Below, piece after piece: positions 2,165 to 32,016 of a stretch of 32,016 nt of DNA; position 1 is the stretch's first letter, and each line of letters opens with the position of its first letter. This DNA is from a virus: IMG/VR virus record IMGVR_UViG_3300007523_000048, positions 1 to 32,016 of that record; one strand, 5' to 3'. The notes below the pieces were generated by a model. It saw nothing but the letters and a program-made list of their open reading frames with translations. It was not told the origin of the DNA and ran no database searches. Both the position numbers and the translations under genes were made by a program.

Positions 2165-2488
2165 ATGAACATCAAAAAAATAATAAAGGAAGAAATCGAT
2201 AACTTCGATTGGGTTAATGATATGGAAACCCCACTTTCGTGGTTAATCGATAATTTTGGGGGTTTGACACCGGTTGTTAAGGATGATAAAACATTTTATG
2301 TCGATGGTAATGAAAACCCAATTTTTTATTATTATGGGAATAATAAAAATAAACATTGTTACATTAGTGATGGTAAAATATGGTTAGTTTTGGAGTCCCG
2401 TTTTGGGATTAATTATAATGAAATTCGGAAAGTTATAACCATATGGTTGGGTGAGGTATATGGATTAACAGGATTCAGACCACGATAA
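2165..2488 (+). CDS. MNIKKIIKEE-family protein, putative capsid-targeted internal protein (copy A)
   Basis: A 107-aa protein. Residues 1-9 (MNIKKIIKE) are short, basic and end in I-K-E, like a T4 internal-protein capsid-targeting sequence cut by the prohead protease after (I/L)-x-E. Residues 14-17 are FDWV. The body carries T-P-L-S-W-L-I-D-N-F-G, F-Y-V-D-G, a tyrosine-rich F-Y-Y-Y strand, C-Y-I-S-D and L-x-S-R-F-G-I-N-Y, and ends in W-L-G-E-V-Y-G-L-T-G plus a private tail (FRPR). Seven paralogs occur in the window. The virion role is inferred from the leader, the late-type motif upstream and the shared pattern; the body has no family I know. Confidence 0.75.
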   Translation: MNIKKIIKEEIDNFDWVNDMETPLSWLIDNFGGLTPVVKDDKTFYVDGNENPIFYYYGNNKNKHCYISDGKIWLVLESRFGINYNEIRKVITIWLGEVYGLTGFRPR

Positions 2489-3196: not shown

Positions 3197-3445
3197 ATGT
3201 TTTTGATTATGACTAATTTTATTTTAGATGATGGTACATATGTTGATGTCGGTCAAGTGTGGACTTGTGAAGGGGATGGAGAATTTACTATAATGTACTT
3301 AAACAACTTCACTGAACAAATGTTTGTTAATGACGGTGAAATATCATGGAGTAATTTTAAATTGAATTATGAAAATGAGGTGTTATATCGTTACAACATT
3401 ATTTCACCAAAAAAATACATCATACCATATTGTTTTACTACATAG
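3197..3445 (+). CDS. Hypothetical small protein
   Basis: An 82-aa protein (alternative start at 3209, MTNFILDDGTYVDVG). It carries V-G-Q-V-W-T-C-E-G-D-G-E-F-T-I and then M-Y-L-N-N-F, a pattern that suggests a small beta-barrel, but I recognise no family. It stands alone between a divergent minus-strand operon and the three-module gene at 3487. No clear promoter element precedes it. Confidence 0.55.
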   Translation: MFLIMTNFILDDGTYVDVGQVWTCEGDGEFTIMYLNNFTEQMFVNDGEISWSNFKLNYENEVLYRYNIISPKKYIIPYCFTT

Positions 3446-3474
3446 GTTTTTTCTATGCTTATAATTATAGGTGC

Positions 3475-3483
3475 ATATTTATA
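3475..3483 (+). promoter_or_regulatory. ATATTTATA late-type motif
   Basis: ATATTTATA, then ATT, then the ATG at 3487. The same sequence (ATATTTATAATTATGAAC) precedes copy A at 2165. It supports 3487 as the true start instead of the longer open frame from 3430. Confidence 0.55.
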
Positions 3484-3486
3484 ATT

Positions 3487-4308
3487 ATGAACCTTAAAAA
3501 AATTATCTTAAAAGAAGTGAACGACTTCGACTGGGTTGCCGACATTGAACCAAATAATTCTGACAAATTACGATATATATTACGTGTGGAACCAAAATTT
3601 CAATTAAACCATTTATCTGACAAATATAATGGACACCACTCGGAACATTCCGAAATTACTTTTATGGGTGAACACGTACATGCAATTAACGTTCGTGGTG
3701 GTGTTAATGATTGGGTTAGGAACATAAATTATCGGATTAAACATGTCTCTAGTAGTTATAAACATTACGATGTTTTGTTATACTTACAAGAGTTGTTTGT
3801 GAATTACCGTAATACAAATAATTCGATGACCGAATCCAACGAATTCGAATGGGTTGGGGAATTTGAACCACAATTATCCATTGGTATGGAGGTAAAAATG
3901 GAAGATGATGAATATCGTGTGATAGACGTAAATAACCAAGTTACTATGGAACATATAGAAAGTGGTATATCTATCACTAGAAGTCTTAAAAACATACAAG
4001 AACTATTAAACAATGGTGGTATTGAAGTATATCATGACCCAAAATTTATTAAAGAAAATTTTGATTGGTTGGATGACGCCCCATCTCGTGTTACAGACTG
4101 TTCGGAACTTTCGATTGGGGCTAAGGTTAGGGTTATTGATAATGTTGATAAAGTTAATAAACTTAATGGGTTAGATGGGGTTATCACACTTGTGGAACAC
4201 GGGATTTATGTAATTAAATTCGTAGATGTAAAATTAGGTGGTGGTTTAATGCCAACGTGGCACTTTCTTTGTGATAAACTAGATAAGGATAATATAATAT
4301 TAATATAA
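3487..4308 (+). CDS. Three-module FDW polyprotein with capsid-targeting-like leader
   Basis: A 273-aa protein starting MNLKKIILKE. Three modules each open with the FDW motif right after a hydrophobic-x-E tripeptide: L8-K-E10 then NDFDWV (13-17), M114-T-E116 then SNEFEWV (117-123), and I188-K-E190 then NFDWL (191-195). Cleavage after these glutamates by a T4 gp21-type prohead protease would give three pieces of about 106, 74 and 83 residues. The third resembles a KOW/SH3-like barrel (I-G-A-K-V-R-V ... G-L-D-G-V-I-T-L-V). No module has a recognised function. The frame is open upstream to 3430, but the late-type motif and leader homology fix the start at 3487. The polyprotein reading is inference. 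Confidence 0.8.
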   Translation: MNLKKIILKEVNDFDWVADIEPNNSDKLRYILRVEPKFQLNHLSDKYNGHHSEHSEITFMGEHVHAINVRGGVNDWVRNINYRIKHVSSSYKHYDVLLYLQELFVNYRNTNNSMTESNEFEWVGEFEPQLSIGMEVKMEDDEYRVIDVNNQVTMEHIESGISITRSLKNIQELLNNGGIEVYHDPKFIKENFDWLDDAPSRVTDCSELSIGAKVRVIDNVDKVNKLNGLDGVITLVEHGIYVIKFVDVKLGGGLMPTWHFLCDKLDKDNIILI

Positions 4309-4310: not shown

Positions 4311-4667
4311 ATGAACATTAAAAAAATAATAAAAGAAGAGATTGATAACTTTGATTGGGTCAATGAAATGGAAACCCCACTTTCGTGGTTAATAGATAAT
4401 TTTAGTGATTTGACCCCGGTTAATAGGGATAATAAAATATTTTATGTTGATGGTAATAATAATGGTTTTTTTTATTATTATTGGGGTGAAGAAAATGAGT
4501 ATTGTTACATTAGTGATGGTAAAATATGGTCAGTTTTGGCGTCCCGTTTTGAGTTTAACTATAAGAAATTTCAGAAAGTTATAACCACATGGCTGGATGA
4601 GGTATACGGAATAACTGGACTCATACCTGTAAGGCAAATGAATACAAAGCATTTGGTAGCTGGATGA
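4311..4667 (+). CDS. MNIKKIIKEE-family protein, putative capsid-targeted (copy B)
   Basis: A 118-aa protein with the same leader, FDWV and body as copy A, ending W-L-D-E-V-Y-G-I-T-G-L-I-P and then a private tail (VRQMNTKHLVAG). The stop codon TGA lies inside the next junction repeat, read out of frame. It begins 2 nt after the three-module gene and has no motif of its own, so it is probably co-transcribed with it. Confidence 0.75.
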   Translation: MNIKKIIKEEIDNFDWVNEMETPLSWLIDNFSDLTPVNRDNKIFYVDGNNNGFFYYYWGEENEYCYISDGKIWSVLASRFEFNYKKFQKVITTWLDEVYGITGLIPVRQMNTKHLVAG

Positions 4668-4688
4668 GGTATACGGAATAACTGGACT
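4659..4688 (+). repeat. Solo junction repeat 2 (orphan tail)
   Basis: GCTGGATGAGGTATACGGAA plus TAACTGGACT. Read in the junction frame it gives L-D-E-V-Y-G-I-T-G-L-I-P-Q-A-F-stop, an alternative tail. It supplies the stop codon of copy B out of frame. Confidence 0.8.
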
Positions 4689-4723
4689 CATACCTCAAGC
4701 ATTTTAGTCTACATTGTTTTCTA

Positions 4724-4738
4724 GTTGGATGAGGTATA
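4724..4738 (+). repeat. Truncated junction repeat 3
   Basis: GTTGGATGAGGTATA, with the usual 5' edge, running directly into AAGATACTATATTAAACTAT, the promoter segment shared by copies C, D and E. Confidence 0.7.
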
Positions 4739-4755
4739 AAGATACTATATTAAAC

Positions 4756-4763
4756 TATTTATA
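4756..4763 (+). promoter_or_regulatory. TATTTATA late-type motif
   Basis: CTATTTATAATT directly before the ATG of copy C at 4767. The same element with the same preceding GATACTATATTAAA occurs before copies D and E. Confidence 0.5.
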
Positions 4764-4766
4764 ATT

Positions 4767-5123
4767 ATGAATATTAAAAAAATAATAAAGGAAGAGATTG
4801 ATAACTTTGATTGGGTTGGTGAGGGTCAAACACCATTATCATGGTTAATTGATAATTTTGGTGATTTGACACCGGTTGTTGATGGTAATAAAACATTTTA
4901 TGTCGATGGTAATAATAAAATATTGTTTTTTTATTATCAGGGTGGAGAAGATGGGGTTTGTTACGTTAATAATGATGAAATATGGTTTGTTTTGAGGTCC
5001 CGTTTTGGGATTAACTATGGTGAAATTACGGAAGTTTTAACCACATGGTTGGATAAGGTCTACGGAATAACGGGACTTAAACCCAGTAACGGGCGTCAAT
5101 ACAAACAAACCAAAATTGGGTAA
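4767..5123 (+). CDS. MNIKKIIKEE-family protein, putative capsid-targeted (copy C)
   Basis: A 118-aa protein: leader MNIKKIIKE, NFDWVGEGQTP, then the family body (P-L-S-W-L-I-D-N-F-G-D-L-T-P-V-V-D-G-N-K-T) and junction W-L-D-K-V-Y-G-I-T-G-L, ending in the private tail KPSNGRQYKQTKIG. That tail, with its downstream promoter segment, reappears almost unchanged as an orphan after copy D (107 nt, four mismatches by eye), which is direct evidence for duplication of the tail segment. Confidence 0.75.
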   Translation: MNIKKIIKEEIDNFDWVGEGQTPLSWLIDNFGDLTPVVDGNKTFYVDGNNKILFFYYQGGEDGVCYVNNDEIWFVLRSRFGINYGEITEVLTTWLDKVYGITGLKPSNGRQYKQTKIG

Positions 5124-5154
5124 GGTATAAAGATACTATATTAAACTATTTATA
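5048..5154 (+). repeat. 107-bp tail-plus-promoter repeat, copy 1
   Basis: It runs from the junction of copy C through its tail and the next promoter motif. The second copy is at 5502-5608. The last 84 nt differ at one position, and three more differences lie in the first 23 nt. It includes a degenerate junction (ATTGGGTAAGGTATA, 5115-5129). Confidence 0.85.
5147..5154 (+). promoter_or_regulatory. TATTTATA late-type motif
   Basis: ACTATTTATAATT directly before the ATG of copy D at 5158. Confidence 0.5.
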
Positions 5155-5157
5155 ATT

Positions 5158-5490
5158 ATGAATATTAAAAAAATAATAAAGGAAGAGATTGATAACTTTG
5201 ATTGGGTTAATGAGGAAACACCACTTTCGTGGTTAATCTATAATTTTGGTGATTTAACACCGGTTGTTAGGGGTAATGTAACATTCTATGTTGATAATAA
5301 TGATGAAAAATTGTTTTTTTATTATCAGGATAAAAAAAATGGGGATTGTTACGTTAAATATGATGAAATATGGACAGTTTTGGCGTCCCGTTTTGGTATT
5401 AATTATGGTGAAATTCAGAAAGTTACAACCATGTGGTTGGATGAGGTATACGGATTAACAGGACGTACACCTAATCTTTGGGACTTCTAA
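5158..5490 (+). CDS. MNIKKIIKEE-family protein, putative capsid-targeted (copy D)
   Basis: A 110-aa protein: leader, NFDWVNEETP and family body, with C-Y-V-K-Y-D in place of C-Y-I-S-D, junction W-L-D-E-V-Y-G-L-T-G and private tail RTPNLWDF. Read on past its TAA, the same frame enters the orphan junction at 5502 and then the tail of copy C, so the orphan looks like an old 3' end that copy D's present tail has displaced. Confidence 0.75.
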   Translation: MNIKKIIKEEIDNFDWVNEETPLSWLIYNFGDLTPVVRGNVTFYVDNNDEKLFFYYQDKKNGDCYVKYDEIWTVLASRFGINYGEIQKVTTMWLDEVYGLTGRTPNLWDF

Positions 5491-5501
5491 AATCTCTATA
5501 A

Positions 5502-5608
5502 GTTGGATGAGGTCTATGGATTAACGGGACTTAAACCCATTAACGGGCGTCAATACAAACAAACCAAAATTGGGTAAGGTATAAAGATACTATATTAAAC
5601 TATTTATA
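5502..5608 (+). repeat. 107-bp tail-plus-promoter repeat, copy 2 (contains solo junction 4)
   Basis: Solo junction (5502-5531) followed by a tail nearly identical to that of copy C (KPINGRQYKQTKIG), a degenerate junction (5569-5583) and the TATTTATA motif (5601-5608) that serves copy E. It is in frame with copy D beyond its stop. Confidence 0.85.
5601..5608 (+). promoter_or_regulatory. TATTTATA late-type motif
   Basis: ACTATTTATAGAT directly before the ATG of copy E at 5612; part of the 107-bp repeat. Confidence 0.5.
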
Positions 5609-5611
5609 GAT

Positions 5612-5956
5612 ATGAATATCAAAAAAATAATAAAAGAAGAAATTGATAACTTTGATTGGATTAACCAATCGGGAGTTGAAACCCCACTATCGTGGTTAAT
5701 CAATAATTTTGGTGATTTAACACCATTTGTTGATGGTAATAAAACCTTTTATGTTGGTAATAATAAACCGATTTTTTATTATTATCAGGATGAAAAAAAT
5801 GGGGATTGTTATATTAGTGATGATGAAATATGGTCAGTTTTGAGGTCCCGTTTTGGGTTTAATTATAAGGAAATTCAGAAAGTTATAACCACATGGCTGG
5901 ATGAGGTATACGGAATAACTGGACTCATACCATACATTACCAATGTCTTCTGGTAA
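5612..5956 (+). CDS. MNIKKIIKEE-family protein, putative capsid-targeted (copy E)
   Basis: A 114-aa protein. It has the leader MNIKKIIKE and an NFDWI motif followed by NQSGVETP, an insertion also found in the distant copy G (IDQSGFETP) 20 kb away. The body is as in the family, with junction W-L-D-E-V-Y-G-I-T-G-L-I-P and private tail YITNVFW. The link between copies E and G shows exchange or duplication between the two clusters. Confidence 0.75.
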   Translation: MNIKKIIKEEIDNFDWINQSGVETPLSWLINNFGDLTPFVDGNKTFYVGNNKPIFYYYQDEKNGDCYISDDEIWSVLRSRFGFNYKEIQKVITTWLDEVYGITGLIPYITNVFW

Positions 5957-7018: not shown

Positions 7019-8632
7019 ATGTCATATATAGTAAGAAAAAATTGTGTTTACAGAAAAATCAATAACAAAATGGTTGGTTGTACTAATGGTTCTATGGAGA
7101 AGTATTTAACAAAGTTGGGTATAAACGAATCTAATGATTTTGAATGGATTGATGATATTCACGGAGAGGTTGAATTTGAATTATGGGAAAAAGTAACCAC
7201 CATCATTAATGATTTGGTATATGGACCATCATCGTTTCAATCAGCATCGACGAGAAAATTAGCATCTATCCTATTAAATTATGATATCGATATTGATGAT
7301 ATGGGTGAGTTTTTTATTTTTCCACCTAAGGATTTTAACGGAAATGAAATCACACAACACCAATTTACTGAAATAAATGACGAATTAACTGATAATGGTT
7401 TTGTTGATGATTATGATGGTGATATTACTGAATCTAGTGAGTTTGATTGGGTTGATGATGGTGTTGGTGATGGTGATATTGTGGTTGGTAGTGTATTTAG
7501 ATGGTCAGCTTCCGATATGGATAGTAAAATGGAACTAGTGGGGGTTGACTACCAAGTACATTGGGTGAATAGTATAACTGGTTATGAAAATAGTATGAGT
7601 ATTGAAGCATTTAAAAATGGTATAAGTAGAGGTGATATATTATATGATGGAAACATAAACGAATTAAATAAAAATTTAAATGAAGACTTTTTTTTTAAAG
7701 GTGTGAATCCCACAGTGGATTTGGTTGTCACTCGTGGTGATGAGGTGTTACTAATTAAACGGTCTGATGATTCAGATATTGAAGCTGGAAAATGGGCTTT
7801 ACCTGGTGGTTTTCATGATACTAAGGCAAAGAAAGGTGAAGAATGGAAAGATGATAAGGAAACTTCGTTAGAAGCTGCCAAACGTGAAGTAAAAGAGGAA
7901 ACAGGGTTGGATGTGGACTTAATTGGTGGACTTAATTTTGAAATGGTTGGTGTATTTGAAGGTGGTGGTAGAGACCCAAGGGATAAAGAAGATTCATGGA
8001 CTAGGAGTACGGTTTATAAAGTACAAATCCCTGAGGATATGGGTAATGAGGTAAAAGGTATGGATGACGCTCAGGAAGCTAAATGGGTTCCAATAAAAAC
8101 AGCACTAAAAACTGAATTAGCTTTTGACCATCACATTATTATTGAAAAGTCACTTAGTGTAAATGAATCTAACTACTTCGATTGGGTTGAATCAATTGAG
8201 GTGTTCCAAAATCCAGCTGTTTATCGAATTAATGATATGGTTAAACGGGAAGAGTTTTTTCGAACATTACATGACGAAGGTTATTATTGGGGCCCCAATA
8301 AACCAATTATCCAACCAGATGGTAGTTTTACTAAATTATATGCTGGGTTAGATGAATACGTATTCCTTGGTCTTAACGATAATGACCGAAAGATAGTATA
8401 TCATGATAGACAAATACCACATAAGACATCTTTAAATGATGTTATTGTTATTGAATCGATAAAACTACCTATCGATATTGGTGACACAATCTATATGGGT
8501 AAATTTAAGAATAAAAAAACAATAGTTAAAGATATTGAGTGGAGTGAAAAAGGTGATTTATTAATTAATGGTAAATCAGCTTTACGATTGAGAATAACTA
8601 AAAATCTTAAAAAGTTGGGGAAGGTTAAATAG
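7019..8632 (+). CDS. Multi-module FDW polyprotein with internal Nudix hydrolase domain
   Basis: A 537-aa protein. Residues 1-37 form a basic leader with two cysteines ending I35-N-E37, followed by NDFEWI (39-44). A second break is I136-T-E138 followed by SSEFDWV, and a third is V381-N-E383 followed by SNYFDWV. Cleavage there would release pieces of about 101, 245 and 154 residues. The middle piece ends in a Nudix domain (about 231-380): P-G-G (262-264) and Nudix-box R-E-V-K-E-E-T-G-L (289-297), with the upstream E seven residues before the R as expected. G-R-D-P-R (317-321) recalls ADP-ribose/NAD-type Nudix enzymes; the substrate is not proven. The Gly-to-Glu spacing of the Nudix box is longer than canonical because of a Lys/Glu-rich insert. 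Processing and packaging are inferred. Confidence 0.85.
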   Translation: MSYIVRKNCVYRKINNKMVGCTNGSMEKYLTKLGINESNDFEWIDDIHGEVEFELWEKVTTIINDLVYGPSSFQSASTRKLASILLNYDIDIDDMGEFFIFPPKDFNGNEITQHQFTEINDELTDNGFVDDYDGDITESSEFDWVDDGVGDGDIVVGSVFRWSASDMDSKMELVGVDYQVHWVNSITGYENSMSIEAFKNGISRGDILYDGNINELNKNLNEDFFFKGVNPTVDLVVTRGDEVLLIKRSDDSDIEAGKWALPGGFHDTKAKKGEEWKDDKETSLEAAKREVKEETGLDVDLIGGLNFEMVGVFEGGGRDPRDKEDSWTRSTVYKVQIPEDMGNEVKGMDDAQEAKWVPIKTALKTELAFDHHIIIEKSLSVNESNYFDWVESIEVFQNPAVYRINDMVKREEFFRTLHDEGYYWGPNKPIIQPDGSFTKLYAGLDEYVFLGLNDNDRKIVYHDRQIPHKTSLNDVIVIESIKLPIDIGDTIYMGKFKNKKTIVKDIEWSEKGDLLINGKSALRLRITKNLKKLGKVK

Positions 8633-9504: not shown

Positions 9505-9775
9505 TTTTAATTCTATTAAAAACCTCATCAGTTGTGTAATACCATTTCATAGAAGTTTGTGATATAGCTGTTAATGTACTCCATAACTCTTTACCCCTTA
9601 AAACTTCATATTCATCAGTTTGTAAACACATACCATCAACTTCCTCATCAACACCAACATTGAATGGTTTAATATTCATGTACCAAATATATTTAAAAGG
9701 AATTAATAAGTAAAACCTATATCTATATAATTTTACCAAACAACCACAATCTTGAAACCTTTTTTCACTCATCAT
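9494..9775 (-). CDS. Hypothetical protein (start uncertain)
   Basis: Two starts are plausible. The ATG at 9775 overlaps the upstream stop by 4 nt (ATGA coupling) and gives 93 aa with C-G-C-L-V-K near the start. The ATG at 9679 (MNIKPFNVGVDEE, 61 aa) is preceded by TATATTTGGTAC, a host-type -7 element in the usual position. Both may be used. The common part is acidic, then K-E-L-W-S-T-L-T-A-I-S. No family is recognised. Confidence 0.5.
   Translation of the reverse strand: MMSEKRFQDCGCLVKLYRYRFYLLIPFKYIWYMNIKPFNVGVDEEVDGMCLQTDEYEVLRGKELWSTLTAISQTSMKWYYTTDEVFNRIKNER
9684..9691 (-). promoter_or_regulatory. Host-type -7 element TATATTTG (possible internal promoter)
   Basis: On the minus strand TATATTTGGTACATG, leading into the ATG at 9679. 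At the 20-nt upstream spacing there is TTTT rather than TTTG, so it is weaker than the other host-type promoters. Confidence 0.4.
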
Positions 9776-10158
9776 ATTAATAATTTTAGTATTTTATCTT
9801 TAACCCCACATTGTTTAATACCCTCAGTGTGTCTAGGGCAATGTACGAAATTTTTTAAACCACCACCGATATTTTCCATTTTTTCAGTATATTCAATACT
9901 CATATTAAGGTCATCAATAGCAACCCACTTAATATCATCTTTCCAAGCGTGTGTGTGTAACCATGATTTAATTTCGTCAACCCGACCACCCTCTAAATTT
10001 GTATCATTGTAGGATTTCATTGATGGTGTAAACCCCATTGGTCCTTTAATGACACCATTATGAGTAAATAGTACAACACACTTTGCGTCGAACATATAGA
10101 CACCCCAACAAGGGGATGTGGAAATAACACCATCGATATCTAAAAATATTATTTTCAT
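9772..10158 (-). CDS. HAD-superfamily protein (probable phosphatase)
   Basis: A 128-aa protein. HAD motif I is at the very start, F-L-D-I-D-G-V-I with D7 and D9; the late acidic motif is W-V-A-I-D-D-L with D82 and D83. The short form with W-V-A-I-D-D resembles the HAD domain described in 'Swiss Army Knife' RNA-repair proteins and many phage HAD proteins. A polynucleotide or nucleotide phosphatase is possible; the substrate is not known. It overlaps the (p)ppGpp hydrolase gene by 4 nt, so the two are co-expressed. Confidence 0.8.
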   Translation of the reverse strand: MKIIFLDIDGVISTSPCWGVYMFDAKCVVLFTHNGVIKGPMGFTPSMKSYNDTNLEGGRVDEIKSWLHTHAWKDDIKWVAIDDLNMSIEYTEKMENIGGGLKNFVHCPRHTEGIKQCGVKDKILKLLI

Positions 10159-10781
10159 CTTAAATCTAACACTGGTTTAATTGCTTTTTTTATTTTCTTA
10201 ATTAGACTTTTATGTGTTTTGGATAAGGTTCTACCACTTTCAAGTTCCTCAATAATATAATCGGTTTGATTACAATATTTAAGACACCAATTAATGTCAG
10301 ATTGTTTACCACTTTCAAGTTTAGTTTGAACGTCCGACAAATTGTGAAGTCTATCAGCTAATTTAATACCTAGACCCCAACTACTCATTGTAGTCATTTT
10401 CATTAATAGGTAATCTTGTTTTCCGTAAGCCTCAATACCTTTTGGGTCTGATGTTAACTCTTCAACCAAAGAAGCAACTAATGACCCAAAATTCAATTTA
10501 ATCACCTCAATTGTGACCCATTCAACATCTTCAACGGTGTCATGTAATAGACAAGCAACAACCAATGGACCTATTTTATGTGAACTTTTATGTTGGTGTA
10601 GTATTTTAGCTACAGCTATTGGGTGTGTTATGTAATCAATTTTAACCCCATTTTTATCAACACCTCTACGGTATACACCTTTATGTGCTTCAGTAGCAAA
10701 CTTTCTAGCTTTTTTCACTAATGTAATAAAGTTAGTAAAATTATCTAATTCTTCTCGGTTGTATGTGTCTACTTGTCTCAT
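10155..10781 (-). CDS. RelA/SpoT-type HD-domain (p)ppGpp hydrolase (MESH1-like)
   Basis: A 208-aa single-domain HD enzyme. It carries the small alarmone hydrolase motifs in order: I-T-H-P with H53, L-L-H-D-T-V-E-D with H80-D81 and E84-D85, and L-A-D-R-L-H-N-L-S-D with D143 and N147. There is no synthetase domain or ACT/TGS region, so it should only degrade (p)ppGpp or related nucleotides, with a Mn2+-type HD site. Removing the stringent-response signal would keep host transcription and nucleotide pools favourable to phage growth (inference). It is the first gene of the minus operon and has a perfect host-type promoter. Confidence 0.88.
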   Translation of the reverse strand: MRQVDTYNREELDNFTNFITLVKKARKFATEAHKGVYRRGVDKNGVKIDYITHPIAVAKILHQHKSSHKIGPLVVACLLHDTVEDVEWVTIEVIKLNFGSLVASLVEELTSDPKGIEAYGKQDYLLMKMTTMSSWGLGIKLADRLHNLSDVQTKLESGKQSDINWCLKYCNQTDYIIEELESGRTLSKTHKSLIKKIKKAIKPVLDLR

Positions 10782-11458: not shown

Positions 11459-13537
11459 ATGGAAGTGAATAAACACATAAATTTTCTTAAAAGACGTGGG
11501 TTTTTAATGAAAGAGGGTACGAATGATAAATTCTTAACACCTAAGGATATTAGTAGTAAGTGTCGTAAACACACGGATAGAGATGAAACACACACGTTTT
11601 GTAGTTTAGATAACCTATATAAGGATATCGAGGGTGATAGTGGTTTACAAACAAAATTAATGACATCACTCAATAAGATTTACCAACACCTTCACCCGAA
11701 TAAAGTTGATAATAGACGTAAATTCAGTAAATTAGTTGATGCTGTAATGAGTGAACAATCAACAACCACTATTAGTACTTTTGAAGTAATATCTAATAAT
11801 CTAGATGTTGTTAATATCGATATATTAGTTAAGGGTATTAATAGTGGTGATGTAAATCTTGATGGTGTGAACAATGTTGATGGGTTTTTAGAACAGATTA
11901 GGGATATTAAGTACCAAACATATACAATGTATGAAAATAGTTTTGTGTCAGATTATTTAGTGTCAGCTAAAAAAAGTTTAAGACTAAAATATGATGATGA
12001 GATATCATTTCAGGTACGTTTGGGTCAAATAATAATGGGTCATAAGGTTAAAACCTTTAATACTGATTTAGAAATCAGAAACCTAATTAAACACATGTAC
12101 GACTCAATAGAAAGAAACCTTAAAGGGTCTTTACATGAGTTTATTAAAGCTGATGTTATGTGTACCAAGGATTTAACAGATGAAAATGGTGATGTTGTTG
12201 TTAAAAGAGGTGATTACATTGAAATTAAAAAATTAGATACGTGGTCAGATAGTTATATATCTGAATTTTTCGCGATATATAAAAACACTACTAATGAGAT
12301 GTTAAAAAGTGATTATGGTTATTTTCTATATAATAAAATTATTGATGGGTTATATATTAGAATTAAAGAGGGTTTTGGTTCTAATATGATTGAAGCCATT
12401 AAAGATAAATTAAGTGGGATTATGTTTGATGGTAATAAATTTGTTCCTATTGAAAATATTAACCTATATTGGTCAAATAGGGGTCAAAGAACTAAGGACC
12501 ATAGACTATCAATTAGATATCAAATAAATGTGAATGAATTAAACGCTTATTACTTTAATACAGAAACTAACCCACCTATGTTTACGAGTTTATCTACGGA
12601 AAATAGACCAAACAGAAGTGAAAAATATAATACAGAACGAAATTTAAAATTTATTACTGAACCACCAATCAGTGAAAATGTAATTAAGGAAGAAACGTCT
12701 GATTTCGATTGGGCAACTGAATATATGGAAACAACACCGAACAATCCGTATATGTTGGCGATAATGAAATGTAATAAAGAAAATTACGAAATATTGGATG
12801 GTCTTGACCCTGATGAATATGAGACCTATTGGTCAATGAGGGAGTACGTTAATGACAATGATGAAAGTATTTTTATTGGTACAAGGGATGAGGCTACTAA
12901 ATCATTAACTGATATGACTTATGATTATTTAAGTGATGATATTTTTAGTTTAGAATCTTATGGTTTAGACCCCGAACAATATGTGATAATCGATGAACCA
13001 ATGATAAATATGATAGCTTCAGATGAGTCTGATTATCATATTGGTCACTTAAGTGATGATGATGTCTTACTTATAACTGATAATAATACGGAATATGAAA
13101 CCCTTGAAGAAGAAATTGATGAAATAGATAGTGGTATTGAGGAATTATCTGTTAGAATAATGATAGCTGATTCAGAAGAGATGGTGGAGGTTGTAAATCA
13201 ATTAACTTCTGAAATGGAGGAGTTGGAAAGTAAAAAAGAAGACATAGAAAAACTTAAATATGAATTAATTGAATCATCTAAACTTAAAGCAACTGAGGAT
13301 TATTATTATGAAATCCAAAAAGAAATGACACAAAGTCCTATTAACTATTTTATTGAAAATGGTACATATGGTAGTGTTGACGAAGTAATTACTAGTTTGG
13401 GTTTGAGGTTTAATTATCGGGAAGCTGCCGAAGACATCGCTTCCCAAGGTGATTTTAGACCACTAAACCAATTTAGTGATAGTTATTGTACGGAATATTT
13501 TGATGGTGAAGATTACATTGTGTTTACAGACATTTGA
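11459..13537 (+). CDS. Large two-part protein with internal I-K-E/FDW break; possible nuclease-like N-part
   Basis: A 692-aa protein. The N-terminal ~410 residues include C-R-K-H and C-S near 35-50 and a segment D232 ... Y-I-E255-I-K257, which looks like the D-xn-E-x-K core of PD-(D/E)xK nucleases; this is weak and by eye only. At I409-K-E411 followed by ETSDFDWA (412-419) the protein shows the same hydrophobic-x-E/FDW break as the putative polyproteins. The C-terminal part (about 280 residues) is very acidic, with a coiled-coil-like stretch (about 535-605, rich in E, I, L). Cleavage at 411 would separate the two parts. Function is unknown. Its end overlaps the convergent gene by 25 nt. Confidence 0.75.
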   Translation: MEVNKHINFLKRRGFLMKEGTNDKFLTPKDISSKCRKHTDRDETHTFCSLDNLYKDIEGDSGLQTKLMTSLNKIYQHLHPNKVDNRRKFSKLVDAVMSEQSTTTISTFEVISNNLDVVNIDILVKGINSGDVNLDGVNNVDGFLEQIRDIKYQTYTMYENSFVSDYLVSAKKSLRLKYDDEISFQVRLGQIIMGHKVKTFNTDLEIRNLIKHMYDSIERNLKGSLHEFIKADVMCTKDLTDENGDVVVKRGDYIEIKKLDTWSDSYISEFFAIYKNTTNEMLKSDYGYFLYNKIIDGLYIRIKEGFGSNMIEAIKDKLSGIMFDGNKFVPIENINLYWSNRGQRTKDHRLSIRYQINVNELNAYYFNTETNPPMFTSLSTENRPNRSEKYNTERNLKFITEPPISENVIKEETSDFDWATEYMETTPNNPYMLAIMKCNKENYEILDGLDPDEYETYWSMREYVNDNDESIFIGTRDEATKSLTDMTYDYLSDDIFSLESYGLDPEQYVIIDEPMINMIASDESDYHIGHLSDDDVLLITDNNTEYETLEEEIDEIDSGIEELSVRIMIADSEEMVEVVNQLTSEMEELESKKEDIEKLKYELIESSKLKATEDYYYEIQKEMTQSPINYFIENGTYGSVDEVITSLGLRFNYREAAEDIASQGDFRPLNQFSDSYCTEYFDGEDYIVFTDI

Positions 13538-14004
13538 TTATCAAGAATAAACCAATTAGGTGTATCCCGTTTATTCCATACACAGAAACTACTTTTTTCT
13601 TTAATGTAGTAGTTACGATAAGCCTCAACCGTATCATCTAACTTACAATCATCAGGCATTGCCTGTGGTGGGTCTGTGAACGGAATTTTAGGTAACTGAG
13701 GTTCATTGTCACGACACCATTCAATAATTACCTGTGACTTGTGTACCTTACCATATCGATGAGTGTATTCATAGGACAACTCTAACCCTAAGTCACATAA
13801 CCAACGATAGTTATTTATCGATTGTCTTGTCCATATTGTGGATGGATGGTTTTTATGTGTTAATCGATATGGTGCCTCTGTACCAAATAACCATTGTGTT
13901 GCACATAACAGTTGAGCCGTTTCCAATATCATCTTAACAACATGTTTGTTACAATGATATTCAGCACATTTTTTTGTTTCCCTATCTAAATAAAATATAT
14001 TCAT
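13513..14004 (-). CDS. Conserved phage protein (MNIFYLD...HCNKHVVKM family)
   Basis: A 163-aa protein with a pattern I remember from many phage genomes: M-N-I-F-Y-L-D, C-A-E-Y-H-C-N-K-H-V-V-K-M-I-L-E-T-A-Q-L-L, N-H-P-S-T-I-W-T-R, N-Y-R-W-L, E-Y-T-H-R-Y-G-K-x-H-K-S, A-M-P-D and A-Y-R-N-Y-Y-I-K-E-K. The invariant His, Cys and Arg residues suggest an enzyme, possibly a DNA-processing one, but its activity is not established to my knowledge. It is the second gene of a minus operon and overlaps the first by 4 nt. Confidence 0.75.
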   Translation of the reverse strand: MNIFYLDRETKKCAEYHCNKHVVKMILETAQLLCATQWLFGTEAPYRLTHKNHPSTIWTRQSINNYRWLCDLGLELSYEYTHRYGKVHKSQVIIEWCRDNEPQLPKIPFTDPPQAMPDDCKLDDTVEAYRNYYIKEKSSFCVWNKRDTPNWFILDNQMSVNTM

Positions 14005-14345
14005 AATACTACACTGTTTAAAAACTCATCCATACTTATTTCAATACCCGTTTTAATTCGATTAGGTTTCACATCCCAGCCAGTATTAATATGTGGTACA
14101 TTTGTAGTTAACACAAAGGTTAAATAAACCTTATTACCCAGTCTCCTAATATTTTCATTACTAAACCAATTAACATATGAATTATAATTAGTCCCATATG
14201 TCAACCAACCCTCACCAACTAAATTATTTATTTTATCCCTAACTGAAGGTTCGTAAAACCCAATAATAGTGGTATCAATACAGTATTCGGTATCATATTT
14301 TAATTCAAAACATGCTATATCATCAACCCAATCAAAATCACCCAT
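14001..14345 (-). CDS. FDW-motif small protein
   Basis: A 114-aa protein starting MGDFDWVDDIACFELKYD. The FDW motif directly follows the start codon, as in the other minus-strand and leaderless family members. The body (Y-C-I-D-T-T-I-I-G-F-Y, V-G-E-G-W-L-T-Y-G, V-Y-L-T-F-V-L-T-T-N-V-P-H) looks beta-rich and matches nothing I know. It is transcribed from a perfect host-type promoter and is therefore probably made early, unlike the capsid-targeted relatives. Confidence 0.7.
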   Translation of the reverse strand: MGDFDWVDDIACFELKYDTEYCIDTTIIGFYEPSVRDKINNLVGEGWLTYGTNYNSYVNWFSNENIRRLGNKVYLTFVLTTNVPHINTGWDVKPNRIKTGIEISMDEFLNSVVL

Positions 14346-26004: not shown

Positions 26005-26343
26005 ATGAACATCAAAAAAATAATAAAAGAGGAGATTGATAACTTTGATTGGTTTGATGAGGGTGAAACTCCACTATCGTGGTTAATCGATAATTTTGGG
26101 GATTTAAAACCAGTTGTTGATGGTAATAAAACATATTATGTTGATGATAATGATAAAAAATTGTTTTATTATTATCAGGGTAAAAAAAATGGGAATTGTT
26201 ATATTAATGATTATGAAATATGGTCAGTTTTGGGGTCTCGTTTTGGGTTTAACTATAAGAAAATTCAGGAGGTTATAACCAGGTGGTTGGATGAGTTGTA
26301 TGGGATAACGGGACTCACACCGACTTTGCAACCTTATCTTTAA
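26005..26343 (+). CDS. MNIKKIIKEE-family protein, putative capsid-targeted (copy F)
   Basis: A 112-aa protein: leader MNIKKIIKE, NFDWFDEGETP and family body with D-L-K-P-V-V-D-G-N-K-T-Y-Y-V. The junction is W-L-D-E-L-Y-G-I-T-G-L and the private tail TPTLQPYL. It lies next to the terminase and portal genes, far from the main array. Beyond its two stops the frame runs into an orphan junction. Confidence 0.75.
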   Translation: MNIKKIIKEEIDNFDWFDEGETPLSWLIDNFGDLKPVVDGNKTYYVDDNDKKLFYYYQGKKNGNCYINDYEIWSVLGSRFGFNYKKIQEVITRWLDELYGITGLTPTLQPYL

Positions 26344-26351
26344 TAAGTGAA

Positions 26352-26381
26352 GTTGGATGAGGTCTATGGAATAACGGGACT
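26352..26381 (+). repeat. Solo junction repeat 6 (orphan tail)
   Basis: GTTGGATGAGGTCTATGGAA plus TAACGGGACT, in frame with copy F past its stop. It reads L-D-E-V-Y-G-I-T-G-L-K-K-Y-R-Y-L-stop; the orphan tail overlaps the next promoter motif. Confidence 0.8.
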
Positions 26382-26393
26382 AAAAAAATATAG

Positions 26394-26402
26394 ATATTTA
26401 TA
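26394..26402 (+). promoter_or_regulatory. ATATTTATA late-type motif
   Basis: AGATATTTATAAACATGAAC, directly before the ATG of copy G at 26406. Confidence 0.5.
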
Positions 26403-26405
26403 AAC

Positions 26406-26759
26406 ATGAACATTAGAAAAATAATAAAGGAGGAAATTGATAACTTTGATTGGATTGACCAATCGGGATTTGAAACCCCACTATCGTGGTTAATCGATAA
26501 TTTTGGGGATTTAAAACCAGTTGTTGATGGTAATAAAACATATTATGTTGATGATAATGATAAAAAATTGTTTTTTTATTATCAGGATAAAAAAAATGGG
26601 AGTTGTTATATTAATTATGGTGAAATATGGTCACTTTTGGGGTCTCGTTTTGGGTTTAACTATAATGAAATTCAGGAAGTTATAACCAGGTGGTTGGATG
26701 AGGTATACGGAATAACTGGACTCACACCATCTCAAACATTGAATTTTTATCTGACCTAG
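26406..26759 (+). CDS. MNIKKIIKEE-family protein, putative capsid-targeted (copy G)
   Basis: A 117-aa protein. Its leader MNIRKIIKE has one change (K4R). NFDWI is followed by DQSGFETP as in copy E, and the body is nearly the same as copy F. The junction is W-L-D-E-V-Y-G-I-T-G-L and the private tail TPSQTLNFYLT. Its TAG stop is fused directly to the next orphan junction, in the same frame, so readthrough would add a second L-D-E-V-Y-G-I-T-G-L. Confidence 0.75.
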   Translation: MNIRKIIKEEIDNFDWIDQSGFETPLSWLIDNFGDLKPVVDGNKTYYVDDNDKKLFFYYQDKKNGSCYINYGEIWSLLGSRFGFNYNEIQEVITRWLDEVYGITGLTPSQTLNFYLT

Positions 26760-26919: not shown

Positions 26920-27984
26920 ATGAGTTTAACAAAAGGACAAAAACTTTTGGAAATAGCTAGGTGTCTTAAGGACCCTATATATGCTATTGAGAGTTACCTA
27001 CACACTGAAGATAGAACACAAGGTGGTGAGGTACCATTCACATTGTTTCCAAAACAAAAAGAACTAGTACATGGTTATATTGACCATAGACACAATATTG
27101 TGATGAAACCTCGTCAAGCTGGGATATCAACAACAACAGCGGCTTACGCAGCGGTCTTAACCGCATTAGCTAGTCCAAAATCTAAACATAAAATCCTAAT
27201 TGCAGCAAATAAACAGGAAACAGCTAAGGAATTTCTTAAGAAAATTAGGGATTTTACTAGACAACTACCTGAATGGATGGATATATATAGACCACCAAAT
27301 GTTAAGGATTGGTTTTCGTCTGATAAAAATTCGGATTCACATTATAGAATGCATAATGGTAGTGAAGTAAAGGCCGTGGCATCATCAAAAGATGCTTTGA
27401 GGGGTTACACACCATCAATCATAATTGTGGATGAGGCAGCGTTTATTGAGGGTAGTAGGGGGGAAGAATTCTATGAAGCAGCACAACCATCTTTATCAAC
27501 AGGTGGTAGATGTATTTTAATTTCAACACCAAATGGGTATGACCCATTATACCATAAAACATATAAACTAGCTAAACTAGGGAAAAATAACTACAATACC
27601 GTTGATATGAAATGGTATGAAGACCCTCGTTACAATGGTAGGAATAAAAATGATTTATTCCCACATGGGATGACATGGAATTTACTTAATGAAAAGTCTG
27701 GTGAAGTACTTGAGAGTATATTTGACCCATGTAGTGGTGATATTAATCATTATACTGGTAAGGAATGTACGGTTCCTGAAAGTACTTGGGATGATATGAT
27801 TGAAAAAGGTTTTACACCAACATCTGGTTGGTTTGAAAGTATGTGTTCTGACCTTAATCACAATCCCCGTTCAATAGCACAAGAACTTTTATGTGTCGTT
27901 GGTGATACTTATATTAAAGTGATGGATAACAACACTGGTGAAATAAAAGAATTAAAAATAGAGGATTTATATAATGAATTATAA
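26920..27984 (+). CDS. Large terminase N-terminal half (ATPase) fused to split-intein N fragment
   Basis: A 354-aa protein. Residues 1-324 are the ATPase half of a T4 gp17-like packaging motor: Walker A-like K-P-R-Q-A-G-I-S-T (63-71), Walker B I-I-I-V-D-E-A-A with D171-E172, and coupling motif L-I-S-T-P-N-G. From Cys325 the sequence changes to an intein start, C-V-V-G-D-T-Y-I-K-V (block A), and stops after 30 intein residues. The extein breaks within A-Q-E-L-L/C-S-F-L-G-S, a conserved TerL segment used by other inteins. The protein should splice in trans with the product of the gene at 29049, giving a 621-aa terminase (T4 gp17 has 610). Confidence 0.92.
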   Translation: MSLTKGQKLLEIARCLKDPIYAIESYLHTEDRTQGGEVPFTLFPKQKELVHGYIDHRHNIVMKPRQAGISTTTAAYAAVLTALASPKSKHKILIAANKQETAKEFLKKIRDFTRQLPEWMDIYRPPNVKDWFSSDKNSDSHYRMHNGSEVKAVASSKDALRGYTPSIIIVDEAAFIEGSRGEEFYEAAQPSLSTGGRCILISTPNGYDPLYHKTYKLAKLGKNNYNTVDMKWYEDPRYNGRNKNDLFPHGMTWNLLNEKSGEVLESIFDPCSGDINHYTGKECTVPESTWDDMIEKGFTPTSGWFESMCSDLNHNPRSIAQELLCVVGDTYIKVMDNNTGEIKELKIEDLYNEL

Positions 27985-29059
27985 ACGATGGTCGGATGTT
28001 GATACTGAATATCTCATAAAAAATGTTAACCATAAACCTTTAAAGTGTGTGGCTGACGATTTAGGTCGTACATATGCATCAATCATGGGTAAGGTTACTC
28101 AACTAAAATTACAACAAACTGACTACGTTAAAAAAGGGTGGGAGACTATTAAAGAACATGTTAATGATATGGGTGTTTACGACATGGATGACACTATTAA
28201 TAAATTAGGGTATAACGATACATACATTAATTTTATGGGTCGGTCTGGTAATCGTAAATTAATGTCATGTGATGGTTTATTATATAACAGTGTTTATCAA
28301 CACACAAAATCTTTAGATAAATTAAAAGATAAGAATAGTAAATCCATAATGGCTAGAATAATTTTTTTAGTTAAACATGGTGGTAATATAGATAAAATTA
28401 AATGTGAATGTGGGAATGGTGTTACATATAAACAAAAACAATCAGTATATGTTGATTATGTAAATAATTTCCAACCGTTTTGTATTCAATGTCAACCTAA
28501 ATACCCATCAGAGAAGTATTTTAAATTTAAATATGGTGATGATTGGATGTCACACCGTGATAAAAGACGTGATAAATTAGGTAATACGAAAACAAATAGT
28601 AAAGAATGGTTCCAAAATAAATACGGTACGGAGTGGGAGGGTAAATACCTTAAATATTATAATAAAAAAATGGTCACGTTACATAAAAACACCGATAAAT
28701 TATTTAAAGATACATTTTCTAAAATATCACAAGAATTATTTAATGATGTGGTGGATGGAATAAATGTGACAGAAAACATTTATTACGCAACTAATGGTGG
28801 TGAGTTTTTTATAAACCTTCGTGATAGTGATAAAATTAAACTTGGTAAACACTGTATTAAACCCGACTTTAAGGTTGGTAATAAGATTATTGAATTTGAT
28901 GGTGATTATTGGCATAATAAAACGATTGATGCCGATAATTTACGATATAAACTATTAGATGATTTAGGTTATAAGGTTATGGTTGTTAGTGAGGGTGATT
29001 ATAAGAAAAATAAAGATTTAATGGTTAATAAATGCATTAATTTTATACATGGAAAATAA
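27974..29059 (+). CDS. Vsr-like (EDxHD-type) homing endonuclease, free-standing inside the split intein gene
   Basis: A 361-aa protein. The N-terminal helical segment (S-D-V-D-T-E-Y-L-I-K-N ... S-I-M-G-K-V-T-Q-L-K-L) looks like a Myb/SANT-type DNA-binding motif. There is a zinc-binding pattern C144-x-C146 ... C170-x-x-C173. The C-terminal nuclease core has P297-D298-F, then E307-F-D309-G-D-Y-W313-H314, then G-Y-K-V-M-V-V-S-E-G-D, as in very-short-patch-repair-type nucleases and the homing endonucleases of fractured phage genes. It overlaps both intein-half genes by 11 nt, so the three frames are tightly packed. It would cut intein-free terminase genes and drive spread of the whole cassette. 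Confidence 0.88.
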   Translation: MNYKRWSDVDTEYLIKNVNHKPLKCVADDLGRTYASIMGKVTQLKLQQTDYVKKGWETIKEHVNDMGVYDMDDTINKLGYNDTYINFMGRSGNRKLMSCDGLLYNSVYQHTKSLDKLKDKNSKSIMARIIFLVKHGGNIDKIKCECGNGVTYKQKQSVYVDYVNNFQPFCIQCQPKYPSEKYFKFKYGDDWMSHRDKRRDKLGNTKTNSKEWFQNKYGTEWEGKYLKYYNKKMVTLHKNTDKLFKDTFSKISQELFNDVVDGINVTENIYYATNGGEFFINLRDSDKIKLGKHCIKPDFKVGNKIIEFDGDYWHNKTIDADNLRYKLLDDLGYKVMVVSEGDYKKNKDLMVNKCINFIHGK

Positions 29060-30275
29060 AAAAAATACTAAATATAAAGTTTTAACTGACAGTGGTTATA
29101 AAGATTTCATCGGTGTTAAACGGAGTTATGCTAAATATGTTCATGAAATAAAGTTAGAGAACGGGTTGGTAATTAAATCAACTGAAAACCATGTATACCC
29201 CACCAATGATGGGGTTTTATTAAAATCTGGTGAATTAACCACTGAAAATTATCTAACCACAAAAGATGGCAACTACCAAGTGGTTAGTAACACCATTATC
29301 ACACATAATGATTATGTATATGATTTATTAGAGGTGGCTGATGGAAACCTTTATTACGCAAATAATATATTAACCCATAATTGTTCGTTTTTAGGTTCTG
29401 GTGATAACGTTATTGATGATAAGTACGTCAAGAGACAGGAAAAACATAATGTTAAAGACCCAATTAGAAAAGAGTGGCTTGATGGTAATATGTGGATATG
29501 GGAAGACCCAATTAAGGACCATCAATACATATTAGCGGCGGATGCTTCATCAGGTTCAGCGGCGGATGCTGCTGGTATATGTGTGTTTGATTACACAACA
29601 GGTAATCAAGTGGCTGAATACCAAGGTAAGGTTGCACCCGATGTACTTGGTGAGATGTGTGCACACTACGGTAATTCATACAACGCTTTTATTGTTGTGG
29701 ATATTACAGGTGGATGGGGTGCAGCAACAGTACTTAAACTAATCGACTTGGGTTACCCTAAAAAATTACTATACTACGATATTACGGTTGGTATTGATGC
29801 GTTAGAGAACAATAGGTCACTACAAAAACACATGGATAATGGTAAATTACCAGGTCTTAACTTCCAAAAAAACAGAAATCTTATTATATCGGAATTAGAA
29901 AAGGGTGTTCGTATGGATACATTTAAACTTCGTTCAGCTAGAGCACTTATGGAGATGGATACTTTTGTATACATCAATGGTAGACCCGACCACATGAAAG
30001 GGTACCACGATGATTTACTTATGTCAATTGGTATGGCTTTATTTGTTGCTATGAGTTCATTTAAAGATTTAGAAAAATCAAAGGGACAAGCTAAGGCGAT
30101 GGTTGGGAGTTGGGTGGTGACTAGTACTGATTCAACAGATGTTGATACATTATCTAGAAACGTAGATTTTTATATGGCTAACAACGAAGTAAATCGGGTA
30201 CAATTAGCTGATTCACCCCATAATTGGGTCTTTGGTGGTATGTATGGATTTAAAAATAAAGGTAAGAAACCTTAG
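29049..30275 (+). CDS. Split-intein C fragment fused to large terminase C-terminal half (nuclease)
   Basis: A 408-aa protein. Residues 1-111 are the intein C fragment: block B-like K-S-T-E-N-H (43-48), block F V-Y-D-L-L-E-V-A-D-G-N-L-Y-Y and block G N-N-I-L-T-H-N (105-111), followed by Cys112 as the first C-extein residue. Residues 112-408 are the nuclease half of terminase, starting C-S-F-L-G-S-G, with acidic residues in A-A-D-A-S-S-G (D165), V-V-D-I-T-G-G (D218) and Y-H-D-D-L-L (D321/D322) that fit the RNase H-like site of gp17. All splice residues are present, so trans-splicing should work. The portal gene follows after 73 nt. Confidence 0.92.
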   Translation: MENKKNTKYKVLTDSGYKDFIGVKRSYAKYVHEIKLENGLVIKSTENHVYPTNDGVLLKSGELTTENYLTTKDGNYQVVSNTIITHNDYVYDLLEVADGNLYYANNILTHNCSFLGSGDNVIDDKYVKRQEKHNVKDPIRKEWLDGNMWIWEDPIKDHQYILAADASSGSAADAAGICVFDYTTGNQVAEYQGKVAPDVLGEMCAHYGNSYNAFIVVDITGGWGAATVLKLIDLGYPKKLLYYDITVGIDALENNRSLQKHMDNGKLPGLNFQKNRNLIISELEKGVRMDTFKLRSARALMEMDTFVYINGRPDHMKGYHDDLLMSIGMALFVAMSSFKDLEKSKGQAKAMVGSWVVTSTDSTDVDTLSRNVDFYMANNEVNRVQLADSPHNWVFGGMYGFKNKGKKP

Positions 30276-30348: not shown

Positions 30349-32016
30349 ATGGCAAAAAAAGATAATTTAACAGTATATCAGAAATTATTTACGATGTTTG
30401 GTACCGGAAACGGACCAAGGACACCTAAATACACACTTGATAAGGATGACCTAATAACCACTAAATCTAGAGATGAATACGAAAAACAGAAATTAGAGGG
30501 TCAACAACAAAACCATATGCAAGCTCAATGGGCTAGAGTGGATAGTGAATTGTATCAAAAAGCTGTATACTACGAAACAAGTAGGATTGCGTCTTACATG
30601 GATTATGAAGCTATGGAGTTTACACCTGAAATTTCAGCATCTTTGGATATTATGTCGGAGGAATCTTGTACACTTAATGAACAAGGTAAAGTTATTACCG
30701 TTCGTTCTGAATCGAAAAGGATTAAAAATATATTAGAGGATTTATTTGAAAATATATTAGATGTTAATACGAATTTACAAATGTGGACAAGAAACACATG
30801 TAAGTATGGTGATAACTTTGTTTACCTTAAAATTGATAGAACCAAAGGTGTTTTAGGAGCTTCCCAATTAACAAATGTTGAAATGGAACGTGATGAAATT
30901 GGTGGGATGACACCACACACCCAAATTGGTGAGGGTGGTCAGGTTAAAAAGAAAGAAGTTAAATTTAAATGGAAAGATAAAGCCATGGAATTTAACGCTT
31001 GGGAAATAGCTCATTTTCGTTTATTGGGTGATGATAGAAAACTACCTTATGGGACATCAGTACTTGAAAAAGTAAGACGTATATGGAAACAATTATTATT
31101 AGCGGAAGATGCTATGTTAGTATATCGTGTGGTGAGAGCACCTGAAAGAAGAGTATTTAAAGTGTATGTTGGTAATATTGATGATAAGGATGTTGAATCT
31201 TATGTACAAAAAGTTGCTAATAAATTCAAAAGAACACAGAAAGCTGATAATCAGACAGGACAGGTTGACCTTAGATATAACACATTAGCTGTTGACCAAG
31301 ATTACTTTATCCCCGTTAGGGATATGAATACATCAAGTCCAATCGAAACATTGGCTGGTGCACAAAACTTAGACCAAATTGCTGATATTCAATATATCCA
31401 AAGAAAAATGGTTACAGCCCTTAGGATACCAAAACCAATATTAGGTTTTGAGGATGCACAGGGTGAGGGTAAAAATTTAGCCTTAATGGATATTAGATTT
31501 GCTAGAACGGTGAATAGAATACAACAAGCTATGATTCAGGAGTTGAATAAAATAGCTATTATCCATTTATATATTTTAGGTTTTGAGGAAGAGTTGAACA
31601 ACTTCCAATTGATGTTAACCAACCCATCTACACAAGGTGAAATGTTAAAAATAGAACAATGGAAAGAAAAAGTTTTATTATATAAAGACCTTGTTACAGC
31701 GGTTGATGGTATAGCACCAACATCTCATACGTGGGCTAAGAAAAACATATTTAACTTCTCTAATGATGAAATTACATTAGACTTAGAACAACAAAGAGTT
31801 GAACGAGCTGTTTCAACTGAACTTGAAAACACACCTAACGTTATTAAGAAAACTGGTTACTTTGATAAGGTTGATAAACTTTACGGTGAAATCGGTGAAG
31901 ATGTTAATACTGATGAAGAAGGTGACGAGGGTGACATGGGAGGTGGAGACGACTTCGGTGGAGGTGGAGGTGGTAACTTTGGTGAGGCTGACTTTGGTGA
32001 GGCTGACTTTGGTGGT
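30349..32016 (+). CDS. Portal protein, T4 gp20-like (3' end outside window)
   Basis: 556 residues are visible, with no stop before the window ends. Features of gp20-type portals: Y-Y-E-T-S-R-I-A-S-Y-M-D-Y-E-A-M-E-F near the start, P-E-I-S-A-S-L-D-I-M-S-E-E, L-P-Y-G-T-S-V-L-E, the strongly conserved R-A-P-E-R-R-V-F (263-270) and K-P-I-L-G-F-E-D. The portal ring forms the DNA channel at the head vertex and docks the terminase, encoded just upstream. The visible end is an acidic, glycine-rich tail (D-E-E-G-D-E-G-D, then G-E-A-D-F repeats) unlike T4 gp20, similar in style to the acidic protein at 22116. Confidence 0.93.
   Translation, partial: MAKKDNLTVYQKLFTMFGTGNGPRTPKYTLDKDDLITTKSRDEYEKQKLEGQQQNHMQAQWARVDSELYQKAVYYETSRIASYMDYEAMEFTPEISASLDIMSEESCTLNEQGKVITVRSESKRIKNILEDLFENILDVNTNLQMWTRNTCKYGDNFVYLKIDRTKGVLGASQLTNVEMERDEIGGMTPHTQIGEGGQVKKKEVKFKWKDKAMEFNAWEIAHFRLLGDDRKLPYGTSVLEKVRRIWKQLLLAEDAMLVYRVVRAPERRVFKVYVGNIDDKDVESYVQKVANKFKRTQKADNQTGQVDLRYNTLAVDQDYFIPVRDMNTSSPIETLAGAQNLDQIADIQYIQRKMVTALRIPKPILGFEDAQGEGKNLALMDIRFARTVNRIQQAMIQELNKIAIIHLYILGFEEELNNFQLMLTNPSTQGEMLKIEQWKEKVLLYKDLVTAVDGIAPTSHTWAKKNIFNFSNDEITLDLEQQRVERAVSTELENTPNVIKKTGYFDKVDKLYGEIGEDVNTDEEGDEGDMGGGDDFGGGGGGNFGEADFGEADFGG

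Follow-up and report, generated by a model that had tools for sequence, protein, structure and literature searches.

The window analysed here, an IMG/VR record of 32,016 bp, encodes a modular 537-aa protein, P0001, together with a series of proteins that share its FxW motif, a T4-type terminase and a portal protein (Table 1). Within P0001, F[DE]W occurs at residues 41, 142 and 387, in each case 3–4 residues past a hydrophobic-x-E-S sequence: INE|S (37), ITE|S (138) and VNE|S (383), the bar marking the predicted cut. When 20,000 shuffles of the same composition were searched for the pattern [ILVM]xE[ST]-x(1-4)-F[DE]W, it occurred on average 0.0006 times per shuffle and never more than once in any, compared with three times in P0001; the three-joint observation is therefore real rather than a product of chance. 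The protein contains thirteen [ILVM]xE sites, and serine comes next at exactly four of them, the three just described and VIE|S (479); these four are also its only [ILVM]xE[ST] sites, and joints 3 and 4 carry V at P3. An earlier note on this DNA had described three hydrophobic-N/T-E breaks followed by an FDW motif, with a Nudix domain between the second and third. Both observations were borne out and the breaks proved to be true module boundaries, but their count missed the site at 479, and there are probably four cuts rather than three. The predicted pieces comprise residues 1–37, 38–138, 139–383, 384–479 and 480–537, the third perhaps being cut again at residue 222, where NLNE|D forms a candidate extra site immediately before the Nudix domain.

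Table 1. Features of the window, with coordinates, strand and basis of assignment.
Feature	Position	Strand	Basis or remark
Three paralogous FDW/FEW proteins, motif at very start	284-562, 534-800, 805-1071	+	no usable x-E site
Three paralogous FEW proteins, motif at very start	1167-1490, 1480-1791, 1778-2128	-	no usable x-E site
Family A1 protein, MNIKKIIKEEIDNFDWV tag	2165..2488	+	sequence family
Second multi-module protein, three FxW joints (LKE|V, MTE|S, IKE|N)	3430..4308	+	sequence
Four more family A1 members (4311, 4767, 5158, 5612)	4311..5956	+	sequence family; AlphaFold
P0001, modular protein, 537 aa	7019..8632	+	open reading frame; PF00293 Nudix
N-domain, 37 aa, strands plus helix, GINE end	7019..7129	+	homologues in G003, G013
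Joint 1, INE|S, predicted cut after aa 37	7121..7132	+	sequence pattern
Module 1, aa 38-138, SNDFEWIDDI start	7130..7432	+	homologous to internal module of G002 230-aa protein
Joint 2, ITE|S, predicted cut after aa 138	7424..7435	+	sequence pattern
Module 2, aa 139-222, SSEFDWVDD start, candidate NLNE|D cut at end	7433..7684	+	sequence
Nudix region, aa 223-383	7685..8167	+	Pfam match aa 231-373 = 7709-8137
Joint 3, VNE|S, predicted cut after aa 383	8159..8170	+	sequence pattern
Module 3, aa 384-479, SNYFDWVESI start	8168..8455	+	sequence
Joint 4, VIE|S, predicted cut after aa 479, without FxW	8447..8458	+	x-E sites also precede homologous domain elsewhere
C-terminal mobile domain, SH3-like by eye, GDTIYMGKFKNKK	8456..8629	+	homology to L002-L006
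692-aa protein, internal joint VIKE|ETSDFDW	11459..13537	+	post-joint part matches G002 stand-alone protein
MGDFDWVDDI protein without x-E site	14001..14345	-	sequence
Two family A1 tagged proteins immediately upstream of terminase	26005..26759	+	sequence family
T4-type terminase large subunit, interrupted	26920..30275	+	PF03237, PHROG 2
T4-type portal protein	30349..32016	+	phrog_213 E=1e-56; gene continues in G001

P0001 combines the Nudix domain with at least three other modules, each with different relatives. Searches of IMG/VR and of cultured phages returned no close relative of the whole protein, only matches to the N-domain, module 1, the Nudix domain and the C-terminal domain, and the non-Nudix modules matched no known family in Pfam, PHROGs or a fold search. 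The N-domain is 42% identical to residues 10–73 of an 871-aa, five-joint polyprotein of G003, and its homologue in G013 is a stand-alone 55-aa protein encoded 85 bp past the capsid gene, with two more FxW genes coming next. AlphaFold gave an unusable model of full-length P0001 (pLDDT 37), reaching a pLDDT of about 78 in the N-domain only. Module 1 aligns with the second bead of the 230-aa protein G002 21705, the alignment beginning at the joint in both. The C-terminal domain is 82% identical to a module of L002 and 47–72% identical to its counterparts in L003–L006, its homologues being preceded by LKE|S (L002), IME|T (L003) and LTE|K (L006); in T4-like phages without FxW (L003–L005) it lies inside NMN adenylyltransferase-like chains, with [IL]xE before it. 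Such chains in T4-like phages are large (L003 2060–4549, L005 3096–6422, L135 3928–6651), have [IVLM]xE before domains, contain a KTDG ligase-like motif (L003, L005) or HExxH domains (L135), and also occur in the cultured Flavobacterium phage immuto.

Beyond P0001, F[DE]W is found in 17 further ORFs of the window. Seven of the encoded proteins begin with the motif (MEENNFDWV and similar) and none has a usable x-E site; FxW can thus occur apart from the cut site, and the motif is not merely a by-product of cutting. Hidden upstream starts that would add a tag to these proteins were rejected: in-frame stops lie close upstream in most, and only the genes at 534 and 1778 have slightly longer leaders, with no LKE tag. 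A near-identical MNIKKIIKEEIDNFDWV tag is present on seven window proteins. In family A1, AlphaFold assigned a pLDDT under 50 to residues 1–17, which span tag and FDW, and mostly about 90 to the domain at residues 20–110; because of this low confidence over the tag, we regard FDW as a linear element that is not part of the fold; the modules behind it are unrelated in sequence. Family A1 itself resembled only uncharacterised phage proteins in Pfam, PHROGs and a fold search. Past its joint, the 692-aa protein matches a stand-alone tagged protein, G002 20096. Other members of the group carry an M-KxLIKKILKE| tag, and a tag holding both LKE and FDW elements reads LIKKILKESDFDWVED. P0001 lacks both the basic-helix tag found in most stand-alone members and a T4-like N-terminal capsid-targeting peptide; in their place stands a 37-aa domain ending in GINE|S. 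Adjoining the FDW cluster, at 9772–10781 on the minus strand, a HAD_SAK_2 phosphatase lies beside an HD phosphohydrolase that is (p)ppGpp-hydrolase-like by eye.

The matching protease and its predicted capsid substrate belong to the same phage. Contig G001 shares a 100% overlap of 19,346 bp with the window and extends beyond the portal gene into a T4-type head cluster comprising an S77 prohead protease of gp21 type (PF03420, E=1.4e-26), a scaffold-like protein and the beginning of a capsid gene, whose full-length relative in G005 is Gp23. The capsid N-terminus reads ENQASVLINE|TTDSSG, with a predicted cut, LINE|T, at the expected maturation position; we placed this cut by position and homology, the residues just past it aligning close to where mature T4 gp23* begins. 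At this position LINE|T or LISE|T occurs in the capsid proteins of seven records, LLKE|A in LR756508 and VSE|A in immuto, which is among the nearest cultured capsid relatives. P0001 thus has L/I-x-E-type sites at its domain boundaries and an S77 protease in the same phage, and the earlier proposal that the breaks are prohead-protease sites fits the specificity expected of that enzyme. In several relatives, genes with the FxW tag sit a short way downstream of the capsid gene, and in the window they adjoin the terminase; several FxW clusters are found apart from head genes. No FxW modules were found in the 150 kb read of each of the cultured phages immuto and Mel-JY01. The terminase gene is itself unusual: its two ORFs have intein-like ends (..CVVGDTYIKV.., ..NNILTHN|CSFLG..) and flank a separate endonuclease-like ORF (27974–29059), resembling the 'fractured gene' layout already known for split inteins. 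Upstream of it, at 22116–23867, lies a 583-aa acidic, low-complexity protein with EGGDT repeats and YMDDD/FMDDD motifs, similar to SYMxD repeats in a scaffold-like protein of G003.

We then quantified joint conservation in related uncultured T4-like phages, gathered first by protein similarity and then by DNA pattern, with contigs read whole. In contigs found without use of the motif, 25 of 31 internal FxW motifs were preceded by [ILVM]xE at a distance of no more than 12 residues. The [ILVM]xE motif is short and common in these proteins, and the corresponding control frequencies were 20.5% for all positions and 39.5% for acidic-matched ones (p=3.5e-6). Across 13 contigs the site was present at 50 of 57 internal motifs, which speaks against the loss of x-E from retained FDW modules that the earlier note had proposed to look for; the seven motifs without a site were mostly in proteins that do not resemble members of the group. 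The second contig set was chosen partly by patterns including KES or NES, so 25/31 is the cleaner figure. Serine occupied P1' at 52% of 98 internal joints, compared with 7.1% of 7937 other [ILVM]xE sites and 30% of N-terminal tags. Spacing from E to F was mostly 3–6 residues, with 1 to 12 counted.

Joints also mark the points at which modules change context. Pairwise comparison of all joint-bearing proteins yielded 44 module alignments with changed context, of which 22 begin within 5 residues of a joint in both proteins against a null of 0.3, although the conserved FxW draws alignment starts towards the joint and thereby helps this test. A module that stands alone behind an M-KxLIKKILKE| tag in one phage can be an internal bead in another: the last 310 residues of G005 215639 match tagged proteins that stand alone in G013, G012 and G018, and the stand-alone proteins G005 222315 and G005 222844 match the third beads of G013 38925 and G012 3971, respectively. 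At least 14 proteins in eight records have two or more full joints, with differing order and cargo, and the longest chains have five (G003 40204, G013 38925, G013 44058). Most modules belong to no known family; those that can be named are the Nudix domain of P0001, a tRNA nucleotidyltransferase head domain in the G003 135696 chain (PF01743, E=2e-35) and Gp88, present in 2 of 34 scanned proteins. The G003 chain (135696–138005; L048:15696-18005:-) joins two FxW modules and the nucleotidyltransferase head to a C-terminal 2H phosphoesterase-like part (HMTINMG...HITIAV), and is possibly an injected tRNA-repair kit. In the same phage, a tagged protein at 304050–304754 (L057:4050-4754:+; tag MGFRRIIKESITEFEW) has no Pfam match, and its C-terminal half (YHITD...IGLTPK...IYLTKT) resembles, by eye, an RNA 2'-phosphotransferase/ADP-ribosyltransferase-type fold.

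The Nudix domain of P0001 (PF00293, E=1.4e-15, residues 231–373) retains an intact REVKEETGL core with RDPR downstream and has an insertion between the glycine and first glutamate of its Nudix box. Its closest solved relatives are 3i9x, 2qjo (NMN adenylyltransferase/Nudix) and 1q33 (ADP-ribose pyrophosphatase), the last of which we take to be NUDT9. Among phages, the nearest relative is a stand-alone Nudix protein of a 635-kb phage (42% identical), followed by NadM-type Nudix domains at 30–33%. This grouping agrees with the ADP-ribose or NAD-related substrate suggested in the earlier note, and favours substrates of that kind without fixing them.

Together, these results suggest, with a probability of about 0.6, that P0001 is a modular head-cargo polyprotein of a T4-like phage that is cut by the protease during prohead maturation, its Nudix enzyme being ejected with the DNA. 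Each joint would pair a cleavage site for the prohead protease, [LIV]-[NKT]-E|S, with an acidic F/L-x-W-[VAI]-x-[DE] element that usually follows 3–6 residues later, and small domains, the Nudix hydrolase included, would be strung together by these joints. The chain would enter the prohead core during head assembly, with FxW as a loading or retention signal, and the gp21-type (S77) protease would cut the joints when it cuts the capsid protein. Freed domains would remain with the DNA and enter the cell together with it, and the Nudix enzyme would hydrolyse molecules of the ADP-ribose or NAD type ahead of all phage gene expression. For P0001-type chains, the jointed, modular architecture is well supported by direct results, namely the joints themselves, module boundaries, conservation, module exchange, and the matching protease and capsid site. 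Cutting and packaging of the chain are likely, and delivery of an active anti-defence Nudix enzyme is plausible. The simplest idea for FxW is that it docks proteins to the prohead core or retains them there, which the position of tagged genes beside capsid or terminase in several phages would suit.

Several known systems share parts of this arrangement. T4 gp21 cleaves after L/I-X-E, and the T4 internal proteins IPI–IPIII and Alt (PMC9026906) resemble the present group in their PF03420 protease and cleavage rule, in many diverging small cargo proteins and, for the stand-alone members, in a short targeting peptide at the N-terminus that runs up to the cut site; T4, however, has one cargo per precursor and no FxW, whereas here cargo domains are chained, each with its own joint. 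P0001 would work like the T4 internal proteins, and like polyvalent proteins, but without the short (about 10 aa) targeting peptide that is one of the defining features of the T4 proteins. In phiKZ and SPN3US, gp21-related proteases (gp175/gp245) process head and ejection proteins under an x-E rule, SPN3US gp245 cleaving after A-X-E with Ser favoured next (PMC10052503); serine at P1' recurs here and several cuts per precursor are predicted, but the phiKZ and SPN3US cuts remove propeptides and leave one mature cargo protein per gene rather than chained cargo. Polyvalent proteins, proposed earlier as multi-domain injected proteins (PMC5512222), likewise place several unrelated domains on one polypeptide thought to be injected early, yet they often have their own peptidase domain or stay uncut, in contrast to the repeated prohead-protease sites and shared FxW found here. 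Virion-packaged Nudix enzymes acting against NAD-derived signals have also been proposed (PMC9503650); these head-linked Nudix/ADP-ribose enzymes of myoviruses usually stand alone or are joined to portal, MuF or protease, and do not form a bead between FxW joints. Our literature search found no report of FxW or of chained prohead-protease cargo in phages. Polyvalent proteins, virion Nudix enzymes and capsid-targeting sequences of T4 had all been described before; what appears to be new is the repeated joint combined with the FxW code.

Other readings account for some of these observations. The chain might be packaged uncut as an injected polyvalent protein, with only N-terminal targeting peptides removed and internal x-E sites persisting as relics of gene fusion; N4 vRNAP is packaged in this way (PMC5512222), and tag remnants do survive at some internal copies, as in G005 84997 (SIKKIIKEEMEDFEW) and in G003 36367 when compared with its stand-alone homologue. 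Most internal joints, though, have lost the basic helix and kept L/I-x-E, and serine at P1' is commoner there than at tags, which looks like selection for the cut site itself, and we consider an uncut chain improbable. Slightly less credible is that x-E-S-acidic-FxW forms a single motif by which proteins, neither packaged nor cut, dock in the cytoplasm to a partner of phage or host origin. The limited E-to-F spacing, the site-less FDW proteins and the FxW clusters away from head genes would suit such a motif, but the spacing still varies widely, the two halves occur apart (a helix plus LKE tag without FxW, and FxW without LKE), joint sites agree with the capsid maturation sequence and module homology stops at the site.

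That the joints have no function, and arose when adjacent paralogues in a repeat-rich stretch happened to run together, gains something from the several tandem paralogous families of the window; it requires neutrally evolving joints, however, and orthologues in G012 and G018 keep theirs, as do multi-module proteins of varied order and cargo across eight records, making this explanation very improbable. A further alternative concerns only the enzyme and is compatible with the cutting and packaging steps of the preferred reading, that of a protease-cut head-cargo polyprotein: the Nudix domain could be a house-cleaning or RNA-decapping enzyme rather than an ADP-ribose or NAD enzyme directed against host defence. 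Nudix substrates cannot be read from sequence, and other Nudix genes occur in G013, G003 and LR745206; against this stand the ADP-ribose/NMN-type closest relatives and the location of the domain, which is flanked by a full joint on each side and immediately preceded by a further candidate site, and we regard the alternative as unlikely, if less so than those above.

More tentatively, and with less confidence than for P0001 itself, the FxW joint may be a general loading code, by which any domain bearing [LIV]xE|S-acidic-FxW would be recruited to the prohead core, cut free and delivered. If so, this phage group would reshuffle injected toolkits (Nudix, tRNA nucleotidyltransferase and many unknown modules) as self-sorting polyproteins, gaining new cargo by insertion of a bead at a protease joint. 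The head-carried proteins of a large uncultured phage group would then be marked by a sequence tag legible from DNA alone, making the contents of large T4-like heads predictable, and pre-made NAD and tRNA enzymes would be tied to the first minutes of infection. Alongside the T4 capsid-targeting sequence, such a code would provide a second means of loading cargo, and a transferable one. In a separate observation, about ten small proteins encoded in LR756508.1 (L143, 150001–200000) share an N-terminus like M-[KR]L-x(4)-L[KR]x[IV][IV]xEE, a candidate for another head-targeting tag in a stretch without FxW.
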